The position numbers were made by a program, and so were the translations under genes. Positions 24,897-37,581 of a DNA stretch of 52,240 nucleotides are shown in pieces. The stretch is from the NCBI GenBank assembly GCA_947626265.1, contig CANQRM010000020.1, positions 1 to 52,240 of the forward strand, given 5' to 3'. Each line of letters starts with the position of its first letter. Positions within the stretch are counted from its first letter, which is position 1. The notes beneath the pieces are model-generated. The model did not search any database. It was not told the origin of the DNA and saw only the letters and a program-made list of their open reading frames with translations. Source of the DNA: an uncultured Oscillospiraceae bacterium (GTDB lineage: Bacteria; Bacillota; Clostridia; Oscillospirales; Oscillospiraceae).

Positions 24897-25008
24897 GGCT
24901 CCCTTGTGTAAAGGGAGCTGTCGCCGCCGTCAGGCGGTGACTGAGGGATTGTCTGACAACCCCTCCGTCGTGGCTTTGCCGCGCCACCTCCCCTTGCACA
25001 GGGGAGGC
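24897..25008. repeat. Dispersed repeat, copy A: tail-to-tail pair of type 1 and type 2 units
   Basis: Two hairpin-rich units face each other with only CTG between them. Unit A1 (24897-24952) begins GGCTCCCTTGTG and ends CTGAGGGATTGT, like the units flanking the DUF559 gene. Unit A2 (24956-25008), read on the minus strand, begins GCCTCCCCTGTGCAAGGGG and ends GGAGGGGTTGT. Each unit is a stem with a GTG(C/T)A loop followed by a second, variable stem. It fills the gap between the importer and the convergent DUF4349 gene, right up to that gene's stop codon. Confidence 0.9.
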
Positions 25009-27754: not shown

Positions 27755-27810
27755 CATGGCGGAAGAACGATAAATCGGGATTTGTCGCTGAAAGCGACAC
27801 CATATGGAAA

Positions 27811-27865
27811 GGCTCCCTTGTGCAAAGGGAGCTGTCAGCGCCATAGGCGCTGACTGAGGGATTGT
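27811..27865 (+). repeat. Left inverted repeat of the DUF559 unit (type 1)
   Basis: Hairpin 1 is GCTCCCTT-GTGC-AAGGGAGC type; hairpin 2 is GTCAGCGCC-ATA-GGCGCTGAC. The conserved end is CTGAGGGATTGT. It supplies the Shine-Dalgarno-like GAGGG of the gene. Confidence 0.92.
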
Positions 27866-27867
27866 AA

Positions 27868-28236
27868 ATGGAGCGAAAGCATAACAAAACGCTCACGTCA
27901 ATGGCCAGAGAGCTGCGCAAAAACATGACGAAAGAAGAACGTCATCTTTGGTATGACTATCTTCGGGAATACCCCGTTCCCTTTTTGAGACAAAAGGTCC
28001 TGGGGAAGTATATCGTTGACTTTTACTGTGCCCAGGCAAAATTGGTCATAGAATTGGACGGCTCTCAGCATTTTGAGCCGGATGCCATGGCAAAAGATGA
28101 GAAAAGGACAAGTTTTCTGTCTGACTATGACTTAACAGTCATAAGGATGCCCAATAATGAGATCAGTCAGAACTTTGACGGCGTTTGCAAATACATAGAT
28201 CAGGCTGTAAAACAATCCCTCAGTCAGCTTCGCTGA
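27868..28236 (+). CDS. DUF559 protein, Vsr/PD-(D/E)XK nuclease-like fold
   Basis: A 122-residue protein, a full-length single DUF559 domain. RELRKNMTKEERHLWYDYLR (about 15-34) is the family opening. The likely active-site set is D51 in YIVDFYC and E62/D64 in LVIELDGSQH, as in Vsr-like endonucleases. The final eight codons (KQSLSQLR) and the stop are encoded by the right repeat. Base composition is clearly lower in GC than that of its neighbours (MATE, HerA), which supports transfer. The ATG follows the left repeat by two bases. Molecular function in this family is not established; a DNA-cleaving role linked to the flanking repeats is a hypothesis. Confidence 0.88.
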   Translation: MERKHNKTLTSMARELRKNMTKEERHLWYDYLREYPVPFLRQKVLGKYIVDFYCAQAKLVIELDGSQHFEPDAMAKDEKRTSFLSDYDLTVIRMPNNEISQNFDGVCKYIDQAVKQSLSQLR

Positions 28237-28260
28237 CAGCCCCCTTTGCACAAGGGGGCC
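28212..28260 (-). repeat. Right inverted repeat of the DUF559 unit (type 1)
   Basis: Read on the minus strand it parallels the left repeat. In hairpin 1 the T:A pair of the left copy is C:G here (GCCCCCTT/AAGGGGGC), a compensated change. Hairpin 2 is shortened to GTCAGC-GAA-GCTGAC. It ends in the same CTGAGGGATTGT. Confidence 0.92.
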
Positions 28261-28311
28261 TTTGGTTTGGCGGCGACCTTGACAACTTCCCATCTATCGG
28301 GCAAACAACAG

Positions 28312-37383: not shown

Positions 37384-37581
37384 GGCCCCCTTGTGCAAAG
37401 GGGGCTGGCCAAGACTTCTTCCAAAGCCTCCCCTGTGCAAGGGGAGGGGGACCGCACGAAGTGCGGTGGAGGGGTTGTCTGTTATCCAACGTTACAATCC
37501 CTCAGTCTCGCTTCGCTCGACAGCTCCCTTTGCACAAGGGAGCCTCCAAGCGAAAAGCCTCTCCCCTTGCACAGGGGAGGC
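37384..37581. repeat. Dispersed repeat, copy C: cluster of whole and half units
   Basis: In order: a lone first hairpin (37384-37410); a type 2 unit (37426-37478), beginning GCCTCCCCTGTGC and ending GGAGGGGTTGT; a 15-bp centre (37479-37493); a type 1 unit in inverse orientation (37494-37544), beginning ACAATCCCTCAGTC; and another lone hairpin (37557-37581). The whole units again face each other tail to tail, as in copy A and around the DUF559 gene. This fills the 287-bp gap between glgP and the response regulator; no gene is present. Confidence 0.9.

Follow-up and report, generated by a model that had tools for sequence, protein, structure and literature searches.

A 52,240-nt stretch of DNA from an uncultured Oscillospiraceae bacterium (contig CANQRM010000020.1), referred to in full as the window, holds a DUF559 gene enclosed by two inverted copies of a dispersed repeat. 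The gene (27868–28236, + strand) encodes 122 amino acids and stands alone between an ATPase gene and a MATE gene. As read from the sequence, the left repeat is 58 bp long (27808–27865, + strand) and consists of a first hairpin (GCTCCCTT-GTGCA-AAGGGAGC, 27812–27832), a T link at 27833, a second hairpin (GTCAGCGCC-ATA-GGCGCTGAC, 27834–27854) and a tail, TGAGGGATTGT (27855–27865). The right repeat is inverted (28212–28263, − strand), with hairpin 1 at 28259–28239, the T link at 28238, hairpin 2 at 28237–28223 and the tail at 28222–28212. Both repeats are of the type designated R, the right one being a C-rich variant. The flanking inverted arms span 33 nt, are 94% complementary and are separated by 390 nt, and the outer repeat ends each show a hairpin and a short T-run.

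The gene is closely fitted to these repeats, as an initial annotation made from the sequence alone had proposed. The ATG at 27868 follows the repeat end at 27865 after two base pairs (AA), and the GAGGG assigned there as the ribosome-binding site does lie within the left-repeat tail (27856–27860), in Shine–Dalgarno position, 7 nt before the ATG. The statement that the last eight codons and the stop are inside the right repeat was correct within two bases: seven codons and the stop (28213–28236), read on the + strand as QSLSQLR, are fully inside, while the eighth codon enters by one base only. The repeats are indeed dispersed, with eight copies of the hairpin core in the window at three or fewer mismatches and none in 100 shuffles. 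The G+C content of the gene is lower than that of the window (44.2% vs 62.7%; 8 of 1038 windows of 369 nt are equally low), but this alone is no proof of the transfer that it had been taken to support.

The family assignment was confirmed by PF04480 (E 9.3e-30), with 103.2 bits against a curated Pfam cut-off of 20.6. D51, E62, D64 and H68, invariant in an alignment of 54 sequences, are all present in the window protein, which is modelled as a Vsr-like PD-(D/E)XK nuclease fold. Among solved structures it is closest to another DUF559 protein, an EDxHD homing endonuclease and Vsr, and its catalytic domain is related to that of the EDxHD homing endonuclease I-Bth0305I. There is no intron or intein around the gene, nor the setting of a homing endonuclease in a conserved gene. 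Being a PF04480 protein with a Vsr-like fold, it is not an HUH transposase of the IS200/IS605 type; RAYT and IS200 transposases are absent from the VIA list of related folds, an absence that proves nothing. PADLOC returned low-scoring matches to restriction-type models, and PDB profile matches to bacterial toxin B chains (E 0.004–0.7) look like chance. Vsr serves T:G mismatch repair and I-Bth0305I intron homing, and PD-(D/E)XK enzymes hydrolyse DNA with no strand joining on their own; we know of no Vsr-like or EDxHD nuclease shown to act on triplex repeats. The family is very large, with at least 8,000 homologues of the window protein (every candidate scored) and 3,865 of YcjD, and the C-terminus carries an SLSQ-like string of its own repeat in 108 of 120 homologues of the window protein.

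Recurrence, dispersal and site polymorphism

GTDB species genomes were scanned for relatives of the window protein. At least 559 were found, and the best 80 loci (63–91% identity) were kept, mostly from metagenome-assembled genomes named Oscillospiraceae, Clostridia or Clostridiales. Individual loci are given L-numbers; G000 denotes the genome of the window and G138 its closest relative. Under a strict pattern, a repeat lay on both sides of the gene in 67 of these 80 loci, on one side in six and on neither in seven. The initial annotation had argued that gene and repeats form one unit whose association is not accidental, and that finding the DUF559 genes of the clade mostly devoid of repeats would speak against it; these genomes show the opposite. 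The left repeat ended 1 bp before the start codon in 47 loci, 2 bp before it in 11 and at other distances in a further 11. DNA matches over the gene were available for 78 loci, of which 49 ran from border to border (start 27800–27815, end 28255–28275); the right border coincided with the end of the match in 66, and only L010 and L014 extended past a border. Since the matches stop at the repeat borders, the boundaries of the unit are visible without knowledge of its mode of movement. L010 and L011, from one genome, have the element in common and nothing else, and the pair L053 and L059 shares an additional ~200 bp on either side.

The two ends of the unit are polarized. An L-type repeat lay upstream and an R-type repeat downstream in 60 of the 80 loci, with L–L in four, R–R in three and one or both ends missing in 13. 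The window element, which is outside those 80, belongs to the rare R–R kind. A different arrangement was observed in L024 (2643–4264), where nine copies of a GGCTCCCCTG-type repeat, all in the same orientation, form a tandem-like array around one DUF559 gene, with no inverted pair. Just outside the R repeat, a palindrome GCGCC..GGCGC followed by ACAT/ACAA..GAA was seen at more than one site (left flank of L174; L150, 2640–2670; L010, 2900–2942), as if the element had an extended end.

The same repeats also occur as short units without a gene. At 24897–25008, an R repeat (24897–24952, + strand) and an L repeat (24956–25008, − strand) meet tail to tail across 3 bp (24953–24955), and at 37426–37544 an L repeat (37426–37478, + strand) and an R repeat (37494–37544, − strand) do so across 15 bp (37479–37493), exactly as had been claimed. 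The latter unit is accompanied by two relics with hairpin 1 only (37384–37405, + strand; 37560–37581, − strand). Genome-wide, G000 has one DUF559 gene and ~70 repeats (78 pattern matches, including a few noise or double counts; a reversed control pattern gave three). The 36 sites examined outside the window comprise 31 tail-to-tail pairs and five single repeats. One L-type (GCCTCCCC) and one R-type (GGCTCCC or GGCCCCC) member make up 30 of the 31 pairs; in the remaining one (L194), the second member is altered in the letters used for type calling and reads as a damaged R. The L-with-R rule holds for both gene-less units of the window too.

We compared repeat abundance with the presence of DUF559 in 35 congeneric genomes. 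Of the 17 with DUF559, 14 had ten or more repeat matches, against 2 of the 18 without it (Fisher p 3e-5; leaving out the window's own genome, 13 of 16 vs 2 of 18), and at the family level DUF559 was present in 7 of 10 genomes with nine or more matches vs 27 of 110 others (p 0.005), kinship being ignored in both tests. Three DUF559-positive genomes lack repeats of the window type: G095 has a different repeat family around its DUF559 gene (L115), G124 has motifs near the gene (L335) and G128 has none (L333). G107 has 11 repeat matches and no DUF559 gene was found in it. A second repeat family, GCTCTCCC, has 6–14 matches in five genomes whose DUF559 gene bears it and 0–5 in 22 genomes without DUF559; its sites are fewer than its matches, because the palindrome is often counted on both strands at two mismatches.

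Site occupancy varies between relatives. The 36 non-window sites of G000 and the window sites were compared with 865,872 bases of the ~2.9-Mb genome G138. In G138, whose flank is 95% identical to that of the window, the right border is shared, but it belongs to a short unit instead of the DUF559 unit; the two DUF559 genes of G138 sit elsewhere. Just left of that short unit (L150, 2400–2632) is a small membrane-protein-like reading frame that is missing there in the window. Another genome (L010) has a full unit at apparently the same site as the window, and in G146 only 84 bp separate the two neighbouring genes, which is too little for an element. Identical occupation of the locus in all relatives, the other outcome that the initial annotation had named as adverse, is thus not observed. 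Elsewhere, the units at L163, L174, L176 and L189 are absent from G138, and those at L165, L170 and L187 are present, L165 and L170 with a different L subtype; at L169, L171, L172, L173, L186 and L190, where spacing only was examined, the distance between flanks in G138 fits an occupied site. No target duplication was seen at the four G138-absent sites, whose borders are diverged and ragged, so that gain and loss cannot be told apart there. At L165 and L189 in G000, the right flank bears another dispersed sequence, which begins TTTGCCCACCCGACGGGCGGCGAGAACCGGCAGTG and lies directly outside the unit. It is missing in G138 at L189 together with the unit and at L165 despite the presence of the unit, and thus seems to come and go by itself. 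At gathering scores, Rfam matched only ribosomal RNA (rRNA) in the window, with no intron match; the window opens within a 23S rRNA gene followed by a 5S rRNA gene (1–2940).

The mirror code of the repeat ends

Inverted repeats above a shuffled null flanked the gene at 120 of 146 DUF559 loci examined; L275–L295, DUF559 loci with weak or long proteins, were left out of this examination. In other genomes of the family, order and phylum, DUF559 is often flanked by inverted repeats of very different sequence that share one architecture: first a hairpin whose 5′ arm is pyrimidine and whose 3′ arm is purine, then in most cases a single T, a second hairpin without a fixed sequence and a tail rich in purines. 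The spacers from hairpin 1 to the tail (101 distinct, pairing not required) have a best stem of 6.0 bp on average vs 3.3 in shuffles. The tail is neither a copy nor the complement of the arm. Read 5′ to 3′, it mirrors the purine arm read 3′ to 5′: G faces G, A faces A/T and the closing C of the arm usually faces T. The G:G and A:A/T rules are those of the published purine-motif triplex code, in which the third strand is antiparallel to the purine strand and forms GGC and A(T)AT triads (PMC4666352); the closing C:T pairing is our addition. In the window, the left tail fits the reversed arm CGAGGGAA at 8/8 positions and the right-repeat tail TGAGGGAT fits its arm CGGGGGAA at 7/8. Examples of matching arm and tail include CGAGGGAA with TGAGGGAT, GGAGGGGA with GGAGGGGT, CGAGAGGG with TGAGAGGG and GGGAGAAA with GGGTGTTT, and at L242 arm and tail have changed in step between the two ends of a single element.

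For the code statistics, orientation was set by hairpin 2, hairpin 1 being palindromic, with a fixed register and the same orientation at both ends. Of the 120 loci flanked by inverted repeats, 84 yielded a parse of both arms and 36 were excluded; several misparses (L011 up, L041 up, L241 and L246 up among them) are still included. The fit was full in 133 of 168 arms and at least 0.85 in 152; among 40 distinct arm–tail pairs, misparses included, it was full in 17 and at least 0.85 in 26. Averaged over 28 distinct arms, it was 0.790, a value attained in none of 20,000 permutations of the tails, whose mean was 0.560 (standard deviation 0.030). With a looser parse, in which the start of the tail floats by 0–3 nt, 37 of 61 distinct pairs were perfect and the mean was 0.872 vs 0.639 with swapped arms. 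About a dozen repeat families fit the mirror code. The tail letters had no part in the choice of orientation, yet the code was first spotted by eye in loci that are also within the permutation test; the near-versus-far comparison and the plasmid, phage and Escherichia coli loci described below are therefore more independent checks. Antiparallel Watson–Crick guide pairing between tail and 5′ arm, modelled on the guide logic of IS608, was also tried. It scored 0.379, below its own permuted mean of 0.423, and needed three different registers, for which reason the mirror code was kept.

Within G000, all eight code positions are obeyed by 51 of 74 repeats and at least seven by 71. The main departure is the C-rich arm with the common tail (14 cases), the tail of the C-rich type being found on none of 14 common-type arms. 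The conserved repeat end is TGAGGGATTGT / GGAGGGGTTGT and bears neither of the tetranucleotide tags GTAG and CGTC named for REP sequences (PMC3733652). The second loop, 1–6 nt in the published search, is replaced by a hairpin in the window and in the majority of loci from its order; this hairpin measures roughly 13–27 nt in most Oscillospirales families seen and is longer in L258. By its sequence, the hairpin-looped repeat reads as a structural variant of the class II intrastrand-triplex motif.

DUF559 genes and triplex motifs across phyla

A strict triplex motif was defined as a 7-bp perfect stem with a perfect tail and a second loop of 2–30 nt, and counted near (within 250 bp of) the DUF559 gene or far (beyond 600 bp) from it. 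Around the 80 best genes, 149 strict motifs lay near (3.84/kb) vs 0.067/kb far. The rates were 2.78/kb near vs 0 far for 29 family loci, 2.97 vs 0.053 for 36 order or phylum loci and 2.67/kb near for 12 plasmid and phage loci, which gives an enrichment of ~56-fold in the two groups allowing a ratio. Overall, 133 of 157 DUF559 genes had a strict motif within 250 bp, 90 on both sides and 43 on one side. Eighteen further genus loci had motifs on both sides in five cases, on one side in 11 and on neither in two. The association between DUF559 and triplex repeats is strong, and it extends across phyla, Proteobacteria, Deinococcus and a cyanobacterium included.

The plasmid and phage sample comprised 15 records (14 plasmid, 1 phage), picked for variety from 43 matching plasmid and three phage records. 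A lenient finder detected motifs in 10 of the first 12 loci, and strict motifs were present within 250 bp in 8 of these 12 and in 3/3 further records. The plasmid loci with strict motifs are from Sphingomonas, Synechocystis, Deinococcus (two), Lelliottia, Photobacterium, Sinorhizobium and Azospirillum lipoferum, four of them with motifs on both sides. The strict test found no motif at the A. brasilense, Picosynechococcus, Pseudanabaena and phage loci, although A. brasilense and the phage have imperfect ones. Loci from Neisseria, Klebsiella and Methylobacterium have a one-sided strict motif within 250 bp. The second loop is 2–5 nt long, mostly 3, in most plasmid, E. coli and Neisseria loci, and in several repeat families the tails point outward, away from the gene. 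In Photobacterium (L318, 1071–1693), seven triplex motifs in both orientations were seen within ~620 bp downstream of the DUF559 gene.

The DUF559 gene of E. coli is ycjD, and it adjoins BoxC/PIT/TM_ECO motifs. In K-12, an exact TM_ECO-pattern motif lies ~170 bp beyond ycjD and the gene end overlaps a damaged motif; in strain HR5-1, both motifs have fully fitting tails and the second overlaps the stop codon. Six E. coli loci were scanned with the lenient finder, which found no motif at L306. A PSPxPSP-like C-terminus, encodable by the C-rich strand of a triplex motif, is present in 67 of 120 listed YcjD homologues. Such C-termini (PSPRPSP or PSPQPSP, in P0143–P0183 and others) resemble read-through of triplex repeats, and PSPRPSP-type tails in other proteins may mark further repeat insertions. 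The gene and the eef operon alternate at one E. coli site: ycjD is described in phylogroups A, B1 and C, with the operon in its place in others, two sequence types excepted (PMC12817139). Of 5,426 E. coli genomes, 3,362 contain 80% or more of the fabI–ycjD–sapF stretch.

Reports of triplex-forming repeats in bacteria date from the 1990s and 2000, and folding of TM_ECO into a triplex in solution has been published, by circular dichroism and nuclear magnetic resonance (PMC4666352). The same source gives 29 TM_ECO motifs in one strain and one in another, and pairs type A with type B in 5/5 close inverted pairs of K-12. Its main text mentions neither DUF559 nor ycjD, and we found no paper in the open-access library searched that links either to triplex repeats.

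A candidate repeat–nuclease element

We consider it fairly probable that the locus is a full-length small repeat–nuclease element with triplex-type ends, and that its nuclease, together with host repair, spreads gene-less L/R units. Its layout, an L repeat, the DUF559 gene and an R repeat (two R repeats in the window copy), places the ribosome-binding site and the final codons within the repeats, and the short units dispersed elsewhere would be gene-less L/R derivatives, parasitic on the nuclease of the full element. This extends the initial proposal, which pictured short derivatives beside a full element encoding a PD-(D/E)XK-type protein, by a logic like that of REP and RAYT. That proposal came through both of the tests set for it in advance; the enzyme is unrelated to the RAYT HUH transposases. 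Each end would act as a class II (purine-motif) intrastrand-triplex motif: hairpin 1 would fold on single-stranded DNA, the second hairpin (or the ~3-nt loop in most loci of other phyla) would turn the chain, and the purine tail would fold back onto the purine arm of the hairpin by reverse-Hoogsteen pairing. The DUF559 protein may then recognize the folded ends in single-stranded DNA, such as the lagging-strand template or repair or uptake intermediates, and nick beside the tail. Copying or resection by the host from the nick would let units spread, convert one another and get lost. We assign the copying step to host repair because this class of enzymes can nick and is not known to join strands. 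One nuclease gene could in this way maintain dozens of gene-less units, as RAYT does for REPs with a different DNA structure, the whole forming a two-part selfish unit of a structure-specific nuclease and triplex-type ends. For a broader proposition the chances appear about even: that the DUF559 family consists of structure-specific nucleases whose substrate is intrastrand-triplex DNA and which drive a widespread, unrecognized class of mobile DNA with triplex motifs at its ends. YcjD with BoxC/PIT/TM_ECO and the window element would both be members.

Several observations weigh against such an element. Repeats occur with no DUF559 gene found in G135 (120), G147 (42) and G097 (31); in G135 and G147 the repeats can have outlived the gene, or the gene can have been missed. 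Loss could explain the absences at empty sites, given their ragged borders and the lack of a visible target duplication. In G000, 21 CGGGGGAA arms have a regular tail, and in 14 of these the tail is TGAGGGAT, which violates the code once in each. No strict motif lies within 250 bp in 24 of the 157 DUF559 loci, including 4 of the first 12 plasmid and phage loci, and a single mismatch in the stem keeps the E. coli motifs (L296, L307) from passing the strict test. Phylogenetic independence is not given for the near and far rates, and the far DNA of the plasmid and phage loci (2,311 bp) is too little to compare. Finally, PMC4666352 reports no mobility genes around TM_ECO and no stable triplex in in vivo footprinting.

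The strongest alternative, itself unlikely, casts the DUF559 protein as a host clean-up nuclease that cuts or resolves replication-blocking triplexes, the repeats spreading otherwise and the gene being kept where they are common. It predicts the same co-occurrence and the same fold, and nuclease-type action in the cell is indicated by a Caulobacter DUF559 protein that is reported to cause the SOS response seen in some of the cells without a methylase (PMC12907096). What it leaves unexplained is a gene that lies between repeats at unrelated sites and whose start and stop are matched to those repeats. We find it less likely again that the repeats are moved by another enzyme, such as an IS200/IS605-like HUH transposase or a RAYT encoded elsewhere, with DUF559 as a passenger. 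Hydrolysis without strand joining by PD-(D/E)XK enzymes would suit a passenger, as would the persistence of repeats in G135 and G147, but one would then not expect distant phyla to combine one protein family with differing repeat families, repeat abundance to be predicted by DUF559 within a genus, or the L-upstream, R-downstream order to be kept in 60 of 80 loci.

Two further readings seem highly improbable. The repeats might act in RNA, as a ribosome-binding site and bidirectional terminators, the tail being a Shine–Dalgarno sequence that resembles the arm through purine richness. The position of GAGGG, the 58 repeats among the 80 relatives that end 1–2 bp before the start, and the hairpin with a short T-run at the outer ends are all in keeping with this, but composition alone is rejected by permuting the tails among arms that are likewise purine-rich, and the outward-pointing tails of several families cannot serve as the Shine–Dalgarno sequence of the gene. 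Moreover, according to PMC4666352, RNA cannot adopt purine-motif triplexes and PIT elements show neither promoter nor terminator activity. Slightly more doubtful still is that DUF559 is a homing or restriction-like nuclease acting on incoming DNA, with triplex motifs as places where defence genes land or hot spots at which they recombine. The solved relatives, the weak PADLOC matches to restriction-type models and the ycjD/eef alternation (PMC12817139) point that way, whereas the fixed polarity of motifs around DUF559, their being ~56 times rarer away from the genes, the absence of an intron or intein around the gene and the low PADLOC scores point away from it.

No partner protein, function or mode of spread has so far been known for triplex repeats, and DUF559 is a very large family of unknown function. 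Our results suggest such a partner protein. Should the link prove true, it would provide a candidate enzyme for the repeats and a substrate for DUF559, testable in E. coli K-12, and the element would be, to our knowledge, without precedent among mobile-type units in that a triplex code, and not sequence or a hairpin alone, defines its ends.

Taken by themselves, the repeats are of a known kind, with a REP/RAYT-like logic; pair, enzyme and structural code together fit no family testable here. By enzyme, the closest known systems are the Vsr-like or EDxHD nucleases Vsr, I-Bth0305I and NGO0050 (3hrl). Miniature inverted-repeat transposable elements are similar in that short gene-less units share both ends with a full element, but here no target duplication was seen at the ragged empty sites, the ends are structured triplex-type motifs and the enzyme is not a DDE transposase. 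REP/REPIN sequences and their RAYT (TnpA_REP) proteins also combine palindromic repeats in inverted pairs, many dispersed copies, one or few nuclease genes and gene-less derivatives (PMC8266576, PMC2817692, PMC3116915), and the window shares with them a nuclease gene flanked by inverted copies of a dispersed repeat. They differ in using an HUH enzyme on hairpins with a GTAG-type tag, where the window has a predicted Vsr-like PD-(D/E)XK protein and a triplex-code tail. BoxC/PIT/TM_ECO, as presented in PMC4666352, has the same succession of a pyrimidine arm, a loop, a purine arm, a linker and a third purine stretch antiparallel to the purine arm, with the GGC and A(T)AT code; its copies are likewise dispersed, intergenic and variable between close strains, and its A-with-B pairs parallel the L-with-R pairs described here. 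Its second loop is 3 nt long, in contrast to the hairpin of most Oscillospirales families. The triplex-type tail, which the initial annotation had overlooked, is the decisive shared property.
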